Shown piece by piece: positions 574 to 14,732 of a DNA stretch of 25,195 nt; positions within the stretch are counted from its first letter, which is position 1; every line of letters starts with the position of its first letter. The DNA comes from a virus. The translations under genes were made by a program, and so were the position numbers. The notes under the pieces are model-generated. The model saw only the letters and a list, made by a program, of their open reading frames with translations. It did not search any database and was not told the origin of the DNA. The stretch covers positions 1 through 25,195 of the IMG/VR virus record IMGVR_UViG_3300037088_000153. One strand, written 5' to 3'.

Positions 574-1416
574 ATGGAACGTATTAAGTTGGCAGTAGTG
601 ATCCCCACTCACTGTGATGCCTTCATTCTAAAGTTGACCCTGGGGACTCTATTGAGGCACTTTCAGCAGCATGACTTGAATATCCAACTAGGGCTTCACA
701 AGTCATTCAACGTGGGCGATGTCAGTAAGGGCTTCCTTGATCAACTCAGGAGGGTTGCGCAAGTTCATCTAGTCGATGAGATAAACTGGGTTGAACATCA
801 CGCTAACCTAGCCCGCTACTCGCTTATGCATGCTAAGAATATAGAGAGCCTGTTTCAACAGATCAAATACTACAGATTCGACTATGTTCTCATCCTGGAT
901 AACGATGTTCAGGTCAAAGCGGATTTCCTAACTGAGCTGGTGACCCGGTTCCCTGAGGCAGACCTTCTAGGGACCTACTTTAGAGAGCCGGAGGTCGCAG
1001 AGGAGTTCACCAACGGCAGAGACCACGAGACCATGCTCTCCATCCCTAGGGTGGCACCGTGGCACCTACTCCTGTCGAGGAGGCTCTATGCCAAGATAAT
1101 GGAGAACCCATCGGTTCTCTACCCGGTAATCATTCGAGACGAGGGTTTGAGACGGGAGCGACAGAGGCTGCATGGGGTAGAGAAGGACTTACCTATCTTC
1201 TCAGATACCTTTGGCGAAGTACTCCATCATTGTAAACAGGACTGGGATATGAAGCTCGGGATTGTTTCAAATGCCGAGTTCTCACAATGGGCCCATCATT
1301 TTTTTTGCAGTTCACTTAACTATGGGAGATGGGCTTTAGGGGAACAGATGCCAGCCCACCTTGCTAGAATCAAAGAGATCTACGATACAGAGTTCCCTAA
1401 TGGGTTGGAGTTCTGA
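574..1416 (+). CDS. GT-A fold (family 2-like) glycosyltransferase
   Basis: This 280-residue protein begins with a typical nucleotide-sugar-binding strand (VVIPTH, residues 8-13) and carries a DxD-type metal/nucleotide site in ILDNDVQV (about residues 107-114). Both are expected for inverting family-2-like glycosyltransferases acting in the cytoplasm. No membrane segment is visible. The ATG at 574 is preceded by AGGGG at 563-567, overlapping the stop of the previous gene and six bases from the start, which supports this start. The 3' end overlaps the end of the opposite-strand gene by 20 bp (1397-1416), leaving no room for a conventional terminator. Donor and acceptor cannot be predicted. Confidence 0.85.
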   Translation: MERIKLAVVIPTHCDAFILKLTLGTLLRHFQQHDLNIQLGLHKSFNVGDVSKGFLDQLRRVAQVHLVDEINWVEHHANLARYSLMHAKNIESLFQQIKYYRFDYVLILDNDVQVKADFLTELVTRFPEADLLGTYFREPEVAEEFTNGRDHETMLSIPRVAPWHLLLSRRLYAKIMENPSVLYPVIIRDEGLRRERQRLHGVEKDLPIFSDTFGEVLHHCKQDWDMKLGIVSNAEFSQWAHHFFCSSLNYGRWALGEQMPAHLARIKEIYDTEFPNGLEF

Positions 1417-2668
1417 TATACGGCGTGTAGCGGAAGTCATCGATAATCTTCCGAGACTTCTTGATCTTTTCTTCCCGTTGGGCCTCGGTATCCGTCGTGC
1501 TTGAGCGGTAGAAGTAGAGGTGCTTGTCAATATAGGTCTGGGTATTCAGTAATGGGTAGAGTTGGATTGCCCAAACTCTGTCTTCTGCGCAGTCTATGGG
1601 CATGAACCGAACAGACTTCGCAATGTTGGACTTGATGGGACACCAAATTGAAGGGCACCTCAAATGAACCCCATTGGCATCTTGTTCCCAGGTGTTGTGC
1701 TGGTAGTTCATATCGAACCTGAACTCCCCCTCGTTGCTCCCGTCCGTGGTGATGACCCCTTTGAAGGTGATGCAGTCTGGGTGATGCTCATCGATGGTTG
1801 TGATTATGTCTTCGATGTAAGTATCAGCTACCAAGTCATCATCATCTACGAAGACAACGTAGTCCCCGGTAGCCTTGTCCAAGAGAAGGTTACGCTTGTC
1901 TCCCAAGATCAACTCACCGTTGTCCGAGGACTCAATAACTTCTACAGCACCCGGGAATCTATCGCACTGAGCATTGATGGTGGAAACCAGTTTAGCCTTT
2001 ACCTTGGCTCTGGAGTCCAGAGTTGCGATTAGTATCGAAAGCTTGGGCGTTCCGGAAGTTCCAGCGCATAACCATGAGTAGCCAGCATTTGTTTCTGGCA
2101 CCTCCTTGGTTATTACCACTGGAGGCAACAAGGTCTGAGGAAGCTGATATAAAGTAGTTTGGTTCTCCCGTATCTTACGTTGTGTCGGAAAATACATGGG
2201 GATCGAATCTGTCATACTGACTACGGTGGTGTACGGTTCTAAGTCTCGAAACTCCCATTGATACCTGAACAAACTCAGGGTCGGTTCGTAGTTGTAGCAA
2301 TGAGCTACACGTGGTTCCGTGTCATGTACAACCATGAACCTCGTGTTGTGCCTGAGCAGTTGCATATCAATGATCCTGCGTTCGCAAGGCCAGTGATCTA
2401 TCAGGACTATATCCCAAAGTATAGTTTGCAAGTAGCGCGCGATATCATCCCAGTTTGATACTGTACGGATTTTGTGTGAAAGAGACCTAAGATCTGCAAA
2501 CTTTTCGACCCACTCGGTCTGGCTGTCCAGCGACACGAGTAGGCGATCCTGGCATAACTCGTGAAGAATAGGGGTGCTGTTGTACCCCATGCCCATCTCC
2601 AGAACAGGCCCAGTGGTGACCCCAACCATGTGTTTTAGGACAGGCAGGTGAGTCCCGGCTGGGTCCAT
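1397..2668 (-). CDS. Fusion of methyltransferase-like domain and GT-A glycosyltransferase
   Basis: The protein has 423 residues. Residues about 15-160 look like a class I Rossmann methyltransferase-like fold: VLEMGMGYNST at 22-32 resembles the SAM-binding loop, an acidic residue follows strand 2 near D48, and DIVLIDHWP (86-94) resembles motif IV. Residues about 208-390 form a GT-A domain starting LSILIATLDSR with an FVDDDD metal site (273-278). This C-terminal domain is clearly paralogous to the fifth glycosyltransferase domain of the upstream 1335-residue protein: both have a PDC-T-FKGV-TTDG segment and a C-P-I-K segment. The ATG at 2666-2668 overlaps the TAA of that upstream gene by one base, so translation is probably coupled; AAAGGGAT about 8 bases upstream can serve as ribosome binding site. 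Whether the first domain really methylates is uncertain; its acceptor is unknown. Confidence 0.85.
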   Translation of the reverse strand: MDPAGTHLPVLKHMVGVTTGPVLEMGMGYNSTPILHELCQDRLLVSLDSQTEWVEKFADLRSLSHKIRTVSNWDDIARYLQTILWDIVLIDHWPCERRIIDMQLLRHNTRFMVVHDTEPRVAHCYNYEPTLSLFRYQWEFRDLEPYTTVVSMTDSIPMYFPTQRKIRENQTTLYQLPQTLLPPVVITKEVPETNAGYSWLCAGTSGTPKLSILIATLDSRAKVKAKLVSTINAQCDRFPGAVEVIESSDNGELILGDKRNLLLDKATGDYVVFVDDDDLVADTYIEDIITTIDEHHPDCITFKGVITTDGSNEGEFRFDMNYQHNTWEQDANGVHLRCPSIWCPIKSNIAKSVRFMPIDCAEDRVWAIQLYPLLNTQTYIDKHLYFYRSSTTDTEAQREEKIKKSRKIIDDFRYTPYIRTPTH

Positions 2669-5600
2669 TACAGTATCCCTTTGAATATCTCTGGGTACCT
2701 AGAAATGAATGATCTAGCTTGTGAGTCGGAACTCAGATCGGTTACAATCTCAATAGCCTCTTCTGATGAGTAGGCGGTGTCTCTAGCGTCGTAGAAGAGT
2801 CCGTCAAGCCCTAGGCGGAAGAAGGTGTTTGGGATGAGCTTGGGACCCTTCTTGGCTGCCTCAGAGCCCGAGGGGCTATACCGATAGAGATACAGTTCTT
2901 CATCTACGTGACACTGACTATGGAGTAATTGGTGGATCTCCTTACTCCATAGGAAATCTTCGTATGAAGTAACATTCTTGTAATGAACTTTCCTGGCTAA
3001 TTCCAACTTTATAGGGCACAAGTGATTCGGGGTCCTTCGGTGAGTTCCTTGTTCATCCTTACCCCAGGATTCTCTAGGGTAGTGTGCAGATAATCTAATT
3101 GGTTCTGGATTTTCCCCGTCAGTAGTGAGTACCCCTTTGAAGGTAACACAATCGGGTTTACCTCTGAGAGCCCGCACAAGTGACTCTAGGTAGTTAGGGC
3201 TTACCCAATCATCATCATCTACGAAGCAAACATAGTCACCTACGCACTCATCAATTACTTCTTGGCGCTTTCCACCAATAGTTGCTGTACCATCGTCAAC
3301 ACTAAGTACAATATTGACCGATTCAGGGCATGGTAGCTTGTTTCTTTGAAGCTCCAGCTCTTGGAGTAGCTTATTCATCATTTCAGCACGGGATTCCAAA
3401 CTTAGGATACCGATGGTCAATATGTTTGGTTCCGAAGGCAGGGGTGTGGTGGGGTCGAACGGGAGATCTGTAACTCGGCTATCCGATGTCAGGTTTGCCA
3501 AGAACTCAGCTTGCCCAGATGAGCTTGCATTGTAGTTGACCGAAGGGTACTTGGTAACCGTGTTTGGTTCTTCTCTCCAACGAGAGAATAATTCGTAATC
3601 ATGCCAGTAATTTACCTCGGTGCGAGGTAACCAGCCCCCGTGCTTTTGAATCAGGCTCTTGTGGTGGATAACACACGAAGTGTCGATCTTACCTCGCTCA
3701 AGCCGGTCGAACTTCAGGTCAACTCCGTTGATCATCATCGATGACCAACCCCAGACAGTGTTCTCCGCCAGGATGGTAGTCAGCAAGTTACTTACGTGGT
3801 CCTTCGCCCAGGTGTTATCGTCATCCAGGTAGGCGATGTACTGCCCAGCAGCCAGGTTGATGGCTACGTTCCTCGGTACGGCCCCACCAGCCCCATGGTT
3901 CTCTTTCAAGTTGATGACCCTAACTCGCGGCTCTTCTGAGTATGGGATTTCTCCGAACGCAGCAGAGTCTAGCTCTGGACAGTTGTCCCCAACAATAATG
4001 ACTTCCAGGGTCTTGTAGGATTGGAGTAGGGCAGATTGAACCGCTTTCCTCAAAAGATCTGTTCTCTTGTAAGTGGGGATCACCACGCTGACTAGTGGAC
4101 CCGCTTGTATCTTAGCTATTCTAGGATCATCCGTTCGGTCATAGTCAAGGATGGGGTGTTCCTCCCGCATCTTAGCCTTGTATGCTGGGTCTTGGAAATA
4201 GGGCTCCTCGGACATCAACCTGGAGTACAAGTCCTCAGCCCCATCACGATGCTTGCCCGTGTGGAACTCAATCCTATGCTCAATGAGTGCGTTGGTGACC
4301 CTAGCGCACTGACCGTGACCAACGCAGTGATCCTTGGTGATCCACTTCTCATGAACTTTGAAGACCCATTGGGAGGTGGCGTTGTTTTTAAATAGGAAGG
4401 GCTTGGCCACGAATTCTTTTCGACTCCCGTCTGGGTAGACAGCAGTCAAAGGAGCAAGGTAAGTATCGAAGGCACTCTGCGAGACGATACGCCTGTTGAA
4501 GATCAGCTCAGGGATAGCTTCAATGGTTTGCTTGTCCAAGCGTTCGTCGGGGTCTAGCATGATGACCCAACTACCATCTGCTGGTGTTTCTGTTGGGTCA
4601 AAGTGCAGAAGAGCCTGGTTACGAGTAGTAGCGAAGTCAACGAACGGAGCTGACTCCACTCTAACTCCAATAGACTTAGCTAGCTCGACCGTTCTGTCAG
4701 TTGACCCTGTATCTAGCAGGTACCAATCTTTCGTAATTGGTTCAAACTGCTTGAAAAATCCTTCAATGCAATTCTCTTCATTCTTGGATATGGCAATGAT
4801 CTTGATCTTCTGGTGTTTCACTCTGAAGAGTCTCTGATTCTCATTTTCGACTGCCACATGATCTTGTTTCAAAGCCTCGAAGGTTTGATGGCCCTTGTGG
4901 TGCACGAAGGTGCCTCCGACAAGCACGCTGGACGCCCCACGAAGGGCAGCTCGGGCGCACAGATCGTCATCCTCCCAGGTTAGGAACCTGGGGTCAAACC
5001 CTCCTAGGGAGGCGAATAAGCCTTTGGACAGCATCATGCATAGCCCAACTACCATAGGTAGAGTCTCCTCCCCTAGTGCTCTTGGCACTGTCTCCAGGGT
5101 CCAATCGCCCTGAGGGGGTTTCGCTCTGTCTGAGTACACTCCAGCAATGACGTTATCTCTGCGTGGGGGGTGACTACCCGGCCAACTATCCCCCTGTGGG
5201 TTATTCTTTACGTTTTCCAGGAGGCGCTGAGGAGTTTTCTCGTCTACAAGCTCAGCATCATCGTTGATAAAGCATAAATATGGCTTTGTTGCCTTACTCG
5301 CTCCGAGGTTGCAGCCTGCAGCAAAGCCAAGGTTCACGGGACTTGTTACAACTATGTCAGCTAGGGATCGCACTTGGGAATCGCAGCCATTCTCGACTAG
5401 TACGATTTCAGTTCCTGGTGCGAATGTCTTCAAACTCCTCAGACAAGCTACGGCATTCAACCCACCAGTGGCATCGAGGACAATAAAGGACACGTGTTTG
5501 GCTACTTCATAACCGATAGCCTCAGTAGAAATGCTCTGTATCGGCTTTGGGCTTTCGACAGGCTTGGAACTCGCGAGTAATTCATCGTTCTTCTTAGCAA

Positions 5601-6675
5601 ACCTATTTGCATAGTTGTTGCGAGCAAGAGCCAAGTGATCTTGGATTGATTGTAATCGCTGGAAAGTGGCATTCCCGTTCGCATCCCTGTACCTGTACAG
5701 GTACAGCATCTTGTCCAGGTGAAAGCACTGGGACTCTAAGAAGAATCGGGCGTAGAGGTCCCAGTCGTCGGCAACTGGCAGTTCAGGATTGTAGCCCCCT
5801 AGCTGGCGAAATGTCTCAGCTCGGAATGCTCTAATATGGTGAGGTCCTACGGTTAGGAACCATCCGAACACTTGGGTGAAGTGAGGCCCGAAACGGTCAT
5901 AAATATTAGGGTTGTTGCATTCTAAGTAATTACGGCCGTGGTACTCCACCTCTCTATAGCGCTTCGGATCTTCCCATGGAGCACCACTAAATCTTTGAGG
6001 ACTACCGTTTTCATAGAACGAAGCACTATTCGTGTAGACCATACCAACAGTTGGGTTGGTCTCAAAGGCATTCTTGACATCCTCCAGAGCAGTATCCGTA
6101 AGCATGTCATCATGATCTAGCTCGACCAAGTACTTTCCTCGGCAAAGTTTAGTAGCTAGATCCTTAAGTGCACCTATTTTCCCTAGATGCATTCCACTCT
6201 GAAGGGGTCTAATCCGATAGTCTTGGGCCGCAAACTCTTGGAGCCTCGCCCAGGTCTTGTCGGAGGAGTGATCATCTACAATAACCCATTCCCAGTTGGC
6301 GTAGGTCTGGCTCCGCAGTGATTGGAAAGTGTCCTGAAGGTAATCACCCGTGTCGTGAGTAGGGGTGTAAACGGAAACTATCGGGTGATCCTTTGAAAAT
6401 TGATGCTCTGTCCAAATGTTGAACGAGTAACAACTCTCTACACTATTACAAACTGCATCAACTGTTGCCTCGGTAGGAACGTTAATCCACCGTTTTCTAA
6501 GCTCGTGGGGTGATAAGGTCAGACCCCCCGGTATGAAGTTCGAGGTGACTATAACATCTGGCCTGAAGGTAGCAATTGTCTCGAGCAGACGATGCGTACC
6601 GTCTAGATGTACCACATTATACGGTAGGTTGAAGTGGTTACCGATTATGAGAACTCTAATTCCTGAAATGGTCAT
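2668..6675 (-). CDS. Five-domain tandem GT-A glycosyltransferase, 1335 aa
   Basis: After an N-terminal region (about 1-95, Rossmann-like strand IRVLIIGNHF) there are five GT-A-like domains. Domain 1, about 97-345: VSVYTPTH, metal site LDHDD at 186-190, DDWDLY near 303. Domain 2, about 395-615: rhamnosyltransferase-like, NLGFAAGCN, INDD at 470-473, WEDDD at 567-571. Domain 3, about 622-810: IIAISKNEEN, LDTGSTDRT at 654-662, DPDE at 708-711. Domain 4, about 861-1050: VSVVIPTYKR, YLDDDN at 949-954. Domain 5, about 1084-1270: FVDDDDWV at 1151-1158. Each retains an aspartate-rich site, so all may be active. No membrane segment is visible. A single chain with several transferases suggests stepwise assembly of an oligosaccharide in the cytoplasm, on an unknown acceptor. 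The start ATG at 6673-6675 has an AGGTG 15 bases upstream on the minus strand, a little far. A methyltransferase-GT fusion gene follows with a one-base overlap. Confidence 0.9.
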   Translation of the reverse strand: MTISGIRVLIIGNHFNLPYNVVHLDGTHRLLETIATFRPDVIVTSNFIPGGLTLSPHELRKRWINVPTEATVDAVCNSVESCYSFNIWTEHQFSKDHPIVSVYTPTHDTGDYLQDTFQSLRSQTYANWEWVIVDDHSSDKTWARLQEFAAQDYRIRPLQSGMHLGKIGALKDLATKLCRGKYLVELDHDDMLTDTALEDVKNAFETNPTVGMVYTNSASFYENGSPQRFSGAPWEDPKRYREVEYHGRNYLECNNPNIYDRFGPHFTQVFGWFLTVGPHHIRAFRAETFRQLGGYNPELPVADDWDLYARFFLESQCFHLDKMLYLYRYRDANGNATFQRLQSIQDHLALARNNYANRFAKKNDELLASSKPVESPKPIQSISTEAIGYEVAKHVSFIVLDATGGLNAVACLRSLKTFAPGTEIVLVENGCDSQVRSLADIVVTSPVNLGFAAGCNLGASKATKPYLCFINDDAELVDEKTPQRLLENVKNNPQGDSWPGSHPPRRDNVIAGVYSDRAKPPQGDWTLETVPRALGEETLPMVVGLCMMLSKGLFASLGGFDPRFLTWEDDDLCARAALRGASSVLVGGTFVHHKGHQTFEALKQDHVAVENENQRLFRVKHQKIKIIAISKNEENCIEGFFKQFEPITKDWYLLDTGSTDRTVELAKSIGVRVESAPFVDFATTRNQALLHFDPTETPADGSWVIMLDPDERLDKQTIEAIPELIFNRRIVSQSAFDTYLAPLTAVYPDGSRKEFVAKPFLFKNNATSQWVFKVHEKWITKDHCVGHGQCARVTNALIEHRIEFHTGKHRDGAEDLYSRLMSEEPYFQDPAYKAKMREEHPILDYDRTDDPRIAKIQAGPLVSVVIPTYKRTDLLRKAVQSALLQSYKTLEVIIVGDNCPELDSAAFGEIPYSEEPRVRVINLKENHGAGGAVPRNVAINLAAGQYIAYLDDDNTWAKDHVSNLLTTILAENTVWGWSSMMINGVDLKFDRLERGKIDTSCVIHHKSLIQKHGGWLPRTEVNYWHDYELFSRWREEPNTVTKYPSVNYNASSSGQAEFLANLTSDSRVTDLPFDPTTPLPSEPNILTIGILSLESRAEMMNKLLQELELQRNKLPCPESVNIVLSVDDGTATIGGKRQEVIDECVGDYVCFVDDDDWVSPNYLESLVRALRGKPDCVTFKGVLTTDGENPEPIRLSAHYPRESWGKDEQGTHRRTPNHLCPIKLELARKVHYKNVTSYEDFLWSKEIHQLLHSQCHVDEELYLYRYSPSGSEAAKKGPKLIPNTFFRLGLDGLFYDARDTAYSSEEAIEIVTDLSSDSQARSFISRYPEIFKGIL

Positions 6676-6960: not shown

Positions 6961-7902
6961 ATGCTAAGGTTAGCCCATACACAAGTTTCTACAGGTGGCA
7001 TTATTGTCAACGACATTGACGACGGACTCCCGAACAAGACAGCAAAACGGGGGACTGGTGATAAGGACAAGTACATAAGGGATGGGAATTCCTTGGGAGG
7101 TCACGACCGCAGCACCAAGCCTGGAGTGAATAACCCAAAGCAGAAGTGTTACATCCCCTTCTGGAAGATACTTTCCAATAACCCACCGACCTACTCAAGT
7201 ACAGTTGCAGGGTACATTGACGTAGCGGAGACGGACAGGGTTCTCATCAGCCAAGACCGAGGGGTCATTCACGGGTTGGCTACCAAGACCCCCTCGGCCC
7301 TCATTACAGTGACCTCCTTCACTGCGGCTGATGTGGCAGCCCCAACGATTACCTCTGCGAATATGGCAGCTGGTGATGGGGTTGATGCTCTAACAATGGT
7401 GGTAACCAATGCCCTCTCTCTTGCCCCGGACATCTCCTCGGTGAAGATTGGGACAACAGTTATCACCAAGACTCAAATCACAGGGGCTGGTGGGACCTTC
7501 ACAGATACCTCGATTATCATTCCTAAGTCTCTTATCCCAACAAGCATGATAATCGGAACAACCACGATTACAGTCACGGCTGACAATCAGACAACTGCTC
7601 CTCATGCAATCGCAGTAACAAACACAGCTCCAACAATTGCGACCGCTGTAATTGGTGGGGGAAATCTCACCCTTGTTGGTACTGGTTTCCTTTCAATCCT
7701 GCCAAACCTCACCTCAGTCACCACAACAGGTCATGTTGGTACTATGACTGCAGCCAATATCTTGGCTCATGGGTCTATTTCAGACACCACAATTGTTATC
7801 CCAACAGCAACTACTACTGGATATCCGGCTGGGTTGACAACAGGGGATACGGTTTTGGTACACGCCAACAGTCTGGTCACCCTGACTCCGGCAACCATCT
7901 AA
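6961..7902 (+). CDS. Virion-type protein with two Ig-like (IPT-type) repeats
   Basis: The protein has 313 residues. The first ~110 are a distinct domain (with motifs such as GGIIVNDIDDG and DKYIRDGNSLGGHDR) without enzymatic signatures. Two related beta-rich segments follow, about 127-219 and 223-310. Each begins with APTI, is rich in Thr, Val, Ile and Gly, and has a T-I-I-P or T-I-V-I-P stretch near its end. This is the composition of the Ig/IPT-like domains that decorate phage capsids, necks and fibres. The ATG at 6961 follows AGGAG (6949-6953) at a 7-base spacing. It is the first gene of the plus-strand run, and the next gene begins 9 bases after its stop. A virion surface role is inferred; the exact position in the particle is unknown. 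Confidence 0.75.
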   Translation: MLRLAHTQVSTGGIIVNDIDDGLPNKTAKRGTGDKDKYIRDGNSLGGHDRSTKPGVNNPKQKCYIPFWKILSNNPPTYSSTVAGYIDVAETDRVLISQDRGVIHGLATKTPSALITVTSFTAADVAAPTITSANMAAGDGVDALTMVVTNALSLAPDISSVKIGTTVITKTQITGAGGTFTDTSIIIPKSLIPTSMIIGTTTITVTADNQTTAPHAIAVTNTAPTIATAVIGGGNLTLVGTGFLSILPNLTSVTTTGHVGTMTAANILAHGSISDTTIVIPTATTTGYPAGLTTGDTVLVHANSLVTLTPATI

Positions 7903-13146: not shown

Positions 13147-13196
13147 GTTTTCTATAACTAATTGACTTTACTACATTGTGGTGTAGAGTCAAGTCT

Positions 13197-14732
13197 ATGG
13201 CCATTACTTGCCCCTACTGCAAAGTTCATTTCCCAAAGTCCGATTCCATCAACTCTCGGCATAAGGCTACATGCGCTGGGTGGGTTGCAGAAGGGATCTC
13301 GAACAAACCTCTGCCTTGTTTGTGCGGTCATGAGTCAACCTCATTGACTCAGATGAAGAGGCATAGGTCTCAGTGTGCTACCTGGAAGGATCGGGATCGT
13401 GGTGAGATCCAGATGGATCGATTAGCCGCTACTCTTCAGAAGAATCACGGAGTAGGGGTTACCAATCCTAGACAGATTCAAGAGGCCGAGGAAAAACGGA
13501 AGGACACTCTTTTAGATCGATATGGGGCTGAGAATGTGTTCTGTCGTGAGTCATCGATCTTCGATAAAGTTCAAGGTTCCCTAGATGGGAAGAGGCCGAT
13601 CCTTAAGGGGGCTGACAATCCGTTTGCGTGGACTGAGGTTCAAGAGAAGATTCGCATAGTCAATCTCGAGCGCTACGGGGCTGAGAACCCTCAGCAAGTA
13701 CCGGAGATTCGAGAAAGAACTAAAGCTACCAATTTGGACAGGTACGGGGGGGAGCTTCTTGCTTCGCCAATTATCCGAGAGAAGAGTAAAACTACCAACT
13801 TAGTTCGTTACGGGTTCGAGAACCCTGCTAACTCTCCTGAGGTAATTGAACGGGCTCGCCAAACTAACCTCGAACGTTGGGGTGTTGAGTGGACTTGCCA
13901 ACACCCGGACATTAAAGCTCGTCAACTCAAGACTCAACTAGAAACTTACGGTAGCCACTACTTTGCGTCTGAAGAGGGTAGGGCGGTCATCAGAGCCACA
14001 CTTCAAGAGAAGTACGGAGTAGATCACCCCTCTCAAATAGAGGGCTTCTGGGATAAAACTGTTGCCACCTTTGTTCGTCGCTACGGGGCAACTCACCCAC
14101 TATTGCTGGTTGAGTTCTTAGAGAAGCGCCGTACAACCTGTCAAGAGAAGTACGGAGTAGATCACCCCCTTCAAAGCCCTGAGGTTTATTCAAAGCTTGT
14201 AGCCACAGTTCAGGATCAGTATGGTGTTGACTGTGTTTTTCAATCCAAAGCTATTATGATTGAGGAGGTGAAGGAAAAGGCTCGTCAAACCAATATTGTG
14301 AATTACGGTTTTCCACATCCGATGATGAATCGAGAGTACGCTAGAGCTCAATTGGAGAAGATTTCACGACCCGGGCCAAATCTTCCGGAGCGACTTCTTC
14401 AGGCTATGGCACCTGAACTCCTCTATACGGGCTCTGGAACCTTTTGGAGATGGCTTCCTCTTCTAGGGCACCATAAGAACCCAGATTTCATCCTCCCCGG
14501 ACAAGATTCAGAGAACCCCAAGAGAGGTGTCACTAAAGTAGTTGAGTTGTTTGGAGACTTTTGGCACTCGCGTATGTTCACGGGACGAGGTAACTTCGAG
14601 CATGAGTCTGAGTTAGTATCTGCTTTTGCAGGGATTGGAATCGAGTGCTTAGTAGTATGGGAGTCAGAGGTTAAAAAGACTCCTGTTGAAACCAAGGAGC
14701 GGATTAGAGCATTCCTCGGTGTAACCCCTTAG
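13197..14732 (+). CDS. Homing endonuclease: zinc fingers, repeat array and Vsr-like nuclease
   Basis: With ATG at 13197 the product has 511 residues; an in-frame TTG at 13176 has no better ribosome binding site. The N-terminus holds two zinc-finger-like motifs (C5, C8, H22, C26 and C41, C43, H56, C60). Residues about 79-388 contain around 12 degenerate repeats of ~23-26 residues centred on a T-N-L-E-R-Y-G-V-E-N-P pattern, as in the DUF7487-type repeats of phage and giant-virus homing endonucleases; these probably read DNA. The C-terminus, about 390-505, looks like a Vsr/EDxHD-type PD-(D/E)XK nuclease: KNPDF (D430), VVELFGDFWH (E450, H457) and LVVWESE (E489). It probably nicks or cuts DNA at a specific site to spread itself. 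It lies between structural genes as a free-standing mobile gene, with no evidence that it interrupts either. Confidence 0.85.
   Translation: MAITCPYCKVHFPKSDSINSRHKATCAGWVAEGISNKPLPCLCGHESTSLTQMKRHRSQCATWKDRDRGEIQMDRLAATLQKNHGVGVTNPRQIQEAEEKRKDTLLDRYGAENVFCRESSIFDKVQGSLDGKRPILKGADNPFAWTEVQEKIRIVNLERYGAENPQQVPEIRERTKATNLDRYGGELLASPIIREKSKTTNLVRYGFENPANSPEVIERARQTNLERWGVEWTCQHPDIKARQLKTQLETYGSHYFASEEGRAVIRATLQEKYGVDHPSQIEGFWDKTVATFVRRYGATHPLLLVEFLEKRRTTCQEKYGVDHPLQSPEVYSKLVATVQDQYGVDCVFQSKAIMIEEVKEKARQTNIVNYGFPHPMMNREYARAQLEKISRPGPNLPERLLQAMAPELLYTGSGTFWRWLPLLGHHKNPDFILPGQDSENPKRGVTKVVELFGDFWHSRMFTGRGNFEHESELVSAFAGIGIECLVVWESEVKKTPVETKERIRAFLGVTP
14003..14168 (+). repeat. 28 bp exact direct repeat inside the homing endonuclease gene
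   Basis: The same 28 bases occur at 14003-14030 and 14141-14168, 138 bp apart. That equals two repeat units of 23 codons. They encode QEKYGVDHP in two repeat units, so recent unit duplication or gene conversion within the DNA-binding array is likely. Confidence 0.85.

Follow-up and report, generated by a model that had tools for sequence, protein, structure and literature searches.

We analysed a 25,195-nucleotide stretch of viral DNA (positions 1 to 25,195 of the IMG/VR record IMGVR_UViG_3300037088_000153, hereafter called the window) that carries on its minus strand, at 2668..6675, a complete glycosyltransferase (GT) gene whose 1335-aa product joins an N-terminal domain (N) to five GT-A domains (D1 to D5). 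Our preferred reading, held with moderate confidence, is that the product of this gene acts as a soluble glycan assembly line on a single chain, with which a large phage would decorate its own virion. An initial annotation, made from the letters alone, had already described five different and seemingly intact GT-A domains on one phage chain, which five Pfam matches, structural models and profiles now confirm. It had also proposed an assembly line, which remains a reasonable proposal, but with three corrections: the architecture is not fixed among relatives, the protein is not unique and the acceptor, which that annotation left unnamed, may well be a virion protein.

The frame runs from an ATG at 6675 to a stop codon at 2668-2670, while the plus strand across 2668-6675 is stop-rich, and the gene was delimited from its open reading frame, Pfam matches and AlphaFold2 models. 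PF00535 (Glycos_transf_2) matches the protein five times (E 2.7e-72 and 242.6 bits in total, for a cut-off of 23.3). The ratio of non-synonymous to synonymous substitution rates (dN/dS) is 0.02-0.12 in each domain where dS is unsaturated and measurable, and all domains of the protein are under purifying selection. Together with orthologues of 62-76% identity in independent contigs, these E-values and ratios show that the five-domain frame is not a chance product. An assembly join was rejected as its origin, since frames with the same five domains and this degree of identity are found in three further contigs (L003, L004 and L005); the fusion recurs in independent contigs of up to 512 kb, and neither of the outcomes that the initial annotation had named as refuting it came about. 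No hydrophobic segment long enough to form a membrane helix was found in the 1335-aa protein (maximal Kyte-Doolittle value of 1.7), which makes it unlike lipid-linked O-antigen systems.

AlphaFold2 was run on alignments of the window and locus proteins in two halves, residues 1-622 and 616-1335, giving mean predicted local distance difference test (pLDDT) scores of 85.7 and 75.8, respectively. Structural comparisons of these models, which leave out the N domain, returned Z scores of 17.6-23.8 for D1 to D4, while the fold of D5 is supported by a moderate-confidence model and by sequence homology, so that five GT-A domains, and not fewer, were found. The Asp-rich sites noted earlier were also recovered, as an acidic motif is present in every domain, although that of D2 (NDD, NSD or NND) is not a strict DxD.

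The N domain (residues 1-92; 6400..6675, minus strand like all the domains below) is confidently predicted as an alpha/beta domain and stays with D1 in single phage proteins of ~405 aa. The label "Rossmann-like" given to it before is plausible but unproven, as no Pfam family matches it above the cut-off (weak matches to MGDG_synth at 0.098 and to Glyco_trans_4_4 at 0.23). D1 (residues 98-370; 5566..6384) was assigned from Pfam and structure matches and is nearest to the K4 chondroitin polymerase K4CP (Z 23.8, root-mean-square deviation (rmsd) 2.8 over 235 aligned residues). Its LDHDD (186-190) and DD (303-304) motifs hold the conserved acidic residues D187-D190 and D303/D304, and its kin by sequence is a widespread phage GT of ~405 aa bearing the same N domain. 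D3 (residues 621-848; 4132..4815), with DPDE at 708-711 and VHEK at 774-777, is of the GmaR/ThuS/SunS type by structure match and profile: its model aligns with ThuS (Z 17.6, rmsd 3.5, 209 aligned), its profile finds GmaR (2e-17), ThuS (6e-10) and SunS (2e-8) as the best relatives of solved structure, all of which are protein or peptide glycosyltransferases, and D708, D710 and E711 are conserved. D4 (residues 858-1070; 3466..4104), identified in the same two ways, is of the SpsA/TuaG type (Z 23.7, rmsd 2.2 and 189 aligned against SpsA), with conserved D951-D953 in its DDD motif (951-953) and HD at 1025-1026. D5 (residues 1085-1280; 2836..3423) was assigned from profiles to GT PHROG 14775 (phrog_14775, E 1.6e-45), with further matches to the solved GTs 5hea (1e-7) and TarS (2e-7). 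Its model is the least certain of the five, with loops under 50 pLDDT, and its motifs are DDDD (1153-1156, with D1153, D1154 and D1156 conserved) and ED (1239-1240). The sequence kin of D5 is a group of actinobacteriophage GTs, and D5 is homologous to the N-terminal half of gp108 of mycobacteriophage Che8 (27% over 188 aa, E 1e-13; 3e-28 with a hidden Markov model (HMM)).

D2 (residues 388-620; 4816..5514) is by Pfam and structure match a GT-A domain with a PF02709 tail, closest to the polypeptide GalNAc-transferase 2, ppGalNAc-T2 (Z 21.5, rmsd 2.9, 213 aligned), but it carries NDDA (471-474) where a classic DxD would stand, and the NDD varies to NSD and NND in relatives. It could be imagined that some of the five domains alone are catalytic, while others are degenerate GT-A folds that bind the acceptor or hold the chain together: D2 and D5 do evolve faster, and D2 is replaced in one relative (L024) by a stretch without family match. 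We nonetheless consider this unlikely, since the acidic motifs of D1, D3, D4 and D5 show almost no variation across the family, dN/dS is low throughout and D2 retains its WEDDD motif (567-571). N-D-D-type sites are, besides, found in active GT2 rhamnosyltransferases, which we count against a degenerate D2.

The five domains resemble each other weakly (24-32% identity over parts of their length) and match different PHROG and PDB families, and the tandem duplication of a single domain was rejected on these grounds; the five-GT array is a mosaic of different families. Identity to L003 amounts to 65% for N, 87% for D1, 65% for D2, 88% for D3, 86% for D4 and 69% for D5, which indicates that D2, D5 and N evolve fastest.

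The mosaic is also reshuffled among relatives. Five GTs in the order of the window are found in L003 (a 183-kb contig), L004 and L005 (512 kb), while L009 (266 kb) and L026 (235 kb) have five GTs with the D5-type domain placed between D1 and D2. Four GTs are found in L007, L019, L023/L027 and L095. L111 (1386 aa) combines five GTs with a methyltransferase, the extra GT and the methyltransferase being inserted between D1 and D2, and L025 (1645 aa) has an L111-like insertion plus one more GT, giving six GTs and a methyltransferase. N-D1 also exists as a single gene in dozens of phages and in L096, a Desulfobulbaceae metagenome-assembled genome. In the latter (3025-5945), the N-D1 gene adjoins a reverse transcriptase gene and two similar, variable-looking C-terminal repeats, an arrangement suggestive of a diversity-generating retroelement. 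These exchanges are the strongest evidence for a putative modular machine. They also modify the earlier idea of an oligosaccharide of defined order: relatives move D5, drop it or insert a methyltransferase or more GTs, and since domain order varies in this way, the order along the chain need not match that of the sugars.

The exchange may extend to the next gene. A methyltransferase-GT gene (1397..2668, minus strand) starts on the last base of the stop codon of the 1335-aa gene, and this one-base overlap suggests translational coupling. Its N-terminal half looks by eye like an S-adenosylmethionine-dependent methyltransferase, with no Pfam match, and its C-terminal half is a second D5-type GT (37% identity to D5 of the window). 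The terminal domain of the L004 protein is 58% identical to this gene and 37% identical to D5 of the window, indicating that a D5-type unit is part of the chain in one phage (in cis) and the product of a separate gene (in trans) in another.

Considering the possible acceptors, the neighbourhood of the gene in relatives proved informative. Collagen-like (Gly-X-Gln)n genes, defined by a run of ten or more triplets, lie within ~7 kb of 10 out of 15 distinct multi-GT loci, compared with 1 of 66 control loci that were fetched by a D4-type GT and had the same flank (Fisher 1.6e-8); the window and short fragments were scored as negatives among the 15. When the GT gene was placed at random in seven long records, its closeness to collagen gave a combined p of 1.3e-4, or 1.7e-3 when two related records were counted once. 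Every collagen match of the 512-kb record is located 1.5-3.3 kb away from the multi-GT gene, and in this and the 183-kb record, all PF00535 matches fall within that gene. In both, the multi-GT gene sits on the opposite strand inside a gene run shared with the window, and the collagen-like gene is on its far side, encoding a protein that matches phage tail-fibre families, although repeats inflate such matches. Single N-D1 genes also have collagen-like runs in 33 of 84 loci, including those in Paenibacillus, Mucilaginibacter and Prauserella genomes.

The repeats of these proteins have mainly Asn, Trp, Phe or Leu at X, and Pro is scarce. Such Pro-poor (Gly-X-Gln)n proteins, with stretches such as GNQGWQGNQGFQ, are encoded at 11820-14105 in L005, 475-2793 in L019 and 13103-15685 in L026. 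The collagen-like region of the L005 protein is broken by about seven tandem, near-identical STPSQVSWWTSVAYGGGLFVAVAYSGSGTQVMRSSDGINW repeats resembling a propeller-like insert.

Three observations suggest a virion protein as the acceptor: the kin of D3 are protein or peptide GTs, D5 is homologous to Che8 gp108, which is encoded beside gp110, and the partner gene in relatives codes for a fibre-like collagen. Several observations weigh against it. The collagen threshold and the test were picked after the first loci had been seen and the loci are related by descent, making the p-values above optimistic and useful as guides. The window itself has no collagen-like gene, its contig ending 2.7 kb past the GT gene; L024, a long relative, is an exception with its collagen gene 50 kb off; and for single N-D1 genes in long contigs, collagen is found within 6 kb in 1 of 12 cases. 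The wider, WaaE-like family of D3 includes enzymes that act on lipopolysaccharide. Lastly, Thr makes up 5% of X and 5% of Y positions in the L003 repeats, 12% and 15% in L006 and ~2% in L026; the usual acceptor residue is thus scarce in most of these partners, and a different protein might serve as acceptor, such as a Thr-rich one (18% Thr) encoded by the divergently oriented neighbour of the GT gene (6961..7902, plus strand), a candidate on account of its composition and of its place in the gene run common to L003 and L005.

Two acceptors other than proteins were also weighed. The 1335-aa protein might remodel a surface polysaccharide of the host (O antigen, capsule or teichoic acid) in the manner of GtrB-type enzymes, blocking superinfection or exposing receptors, a role often given to phage GTs (PMC7029224). 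D1 and D4 do look like enzymes for polysaccharides and teichoic acids (K4CP, the TuaG profile, RmlT, TarS and TarP), but this similarity is broad and is all that speaks positively for a host-envelope target, whereas the membrane segment is absent, the L003 and L005 genes lie inside a run that includes genes for fibre-like proteins, the kin of D3 and D5 belong to protein and virion glycosylation and the association with collagen genes is strong. We therefore find this explanation rather improbable. Far less probable is a role in evading restriction, in which an oligosaccharide would be placed on hypermodified DNA of the phage. Phage GTs that put diverse glycans on DNA are known, according to the passage of PMC12619734 citing Pyle et al. 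2024, but the kin of the domains are protein and polysaccharide GTs, and none of the nine multi-GT records searched, the 512-kb one among them, contained PF00303 (thymidylate synthase/dCMP hydroxymethylase), although these records are possibly not complete and base chemistries of other kinds are known.

If the protein is indeed a virion-decorating assembly line, each of its five GT-A domains, of different origins, would take a nucleotide-sugar donor and contribute a single sugar. D3 would probably attach the first sugar to a side chain of a protein, and D1 and D4 would make a conserved core. The variable sugars further out, and perhaps methyl caps, might come from D2 and D5, which evolve fastest among the GT domains, together with the coupled methyltransferase-GT gene. 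The likeliest acceptor would be a virion protein encoded alongside, which in relatives may be the (Gly-X-Gln)n collagen-like, tail-fibre-like protein or, alternatively, the Thr-rich neighbour. A bolder version, which we put forward tentatively and judge to be rather less probable than the general reading, is that large phages own a modular single-chain line of four to six GTs, with an optional methyltransferase and with domains shuffled or inserted from phage to phage, whose specific task is to glycosylate a collagen-like, Pro-poor (Gly-X-Gln)n fibre of the virion. If true, this would be the first one-polypeptide, multi-step protein glycosylation machine in a phage, and its sugars may stabilise or mask a fibre lacking proline.

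This arrangement is reminiscent of several known systems. In Che8, three adjacent GT genes encode gp108, gp109 and gp110, and capsid glycosylation depends on the last of them (PMC12363180). As in the window, these are soluble phage-encoded GTs, and both gp108 and the 1397-2668 gene look like GT-methyltransferase fusions, but Che8 has separate small genes where the window has five GTs on a single chain, and its acceptors are the capsid and tail tube. Searches of the window proteins for a gp110 homologue by blastp, phmmer and domain HMMs gave no significant match. The A111/114R and A064R proteins of PBCV-1 are multi-domain virus GTs that build a capsid glycan, each domain handling a different sugar (PMC9614988). 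They likewise have several GT domains, with a methyltransferase too in A064R, on one soluble viral chain, but they have three domains and belong to an algal virus, whereas the phage protein has five of GT2 type. Tandem GT-A fusions are also found in K4CP and Pasteurella heparosan synthase 2, which D1 and the D1-D2 pair most closely match in fold. In those enzymes, two alternating domains make a polymer; the 1335-aa protein does not show the two alternating GT domains of a bifunctional polymerase, its five domains being dissimilar and of different families. GTs with a collagen-like partner have been described as well: Clostridioides difficile SgtA, encoded directly upstream of bclA3, puts N-acetylglucosamine onto Thr of collagen repeats (PMC7157674), and L230 of mimivirus is a glucosyltransferase acting on viral collagen (PMC9614988). 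The same kind of partnership is proposed here from the gene neighbourhood in relatives, although SgtA and L230 have one GT domain each and GPT or lysine acceptors, unlike the five GT domains and the Pro-poor (GXQ)n partner considered here.

Five GTs on one phage chain had been called unusual in the initial annotation, but the protein is not alone. The BFVD and UniProt databases contain a 1443-aa homologue of both of its halves (A0A6J5LLV3, 51% and 41% identity) from an uncultured Caudovirales phage. It is ~100 residues longer and has no annotation beyond that of a GTA-type domain protein. Giant viruses also have many multi-GT proteins, CeV-01B for instance encoding a "Multiple glycosyltransferase domain containing protein". 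The literature that we searched on multi-domain GTs returned work on K4CP and mimivirus L137 and no five-domain phage protein, and a search on jumbo phages, GTs and collagen returned nothing relevant; a shuffled, conserved five-GT chain of large phages and its link to collagen genes appear to be undescribed in this literature.

Elsewhere in the window, a weakly GT2-like protein (574..1416, plus strand; PF00535 E 0.0017, below the cut-off) is probably a member of the same glycosylation cluster. An unannotated partial frame at the contig end (1..564, plus strand), which has relatives in L138 and L141 and no family match, is possibly a further glycosyltransferase, being GT-like by eye (YMHTKG and HFSGNFWWARSSYL). 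With these GT-like frames in 1-1416, the number of GT domains in the cluster may reach eight, and the cluster may run past the contig end. The window also encodes a volactin-family actin, a marker of a large-phage group (20164-21201; PF25216, E 1.3e-64), whose relatives of 47-69% identity were found in 19 viral contigs, several of them of 300-512 kb. A homologue of the 1335-aa protein (P0001) is present in one of 15 volactin-marked records, the 512-kb one, which suggests that the GT gene is an accessory or optional module in that group. At 13176-14732, a 518-aa protein has an array of three DUF7487 (PF24308) repeats and a C-terminus that looks endonuclease-like by eye.

Up to now, glycosylated phage virions have been demonstrated for a few mycobacteriophages, and a recurrent multi-GT chain accompanied by a gene for a collagen-like fibre would extend virion glycosylation to uncultured large phages. 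Rebuilt by domain exchange, such a chain would be the bacterial-virus counterpart of the multi-domain GTs of chloroviruses, and it would offer a natural scaffold for the one-pot synthesis of defined oligosaccharides.

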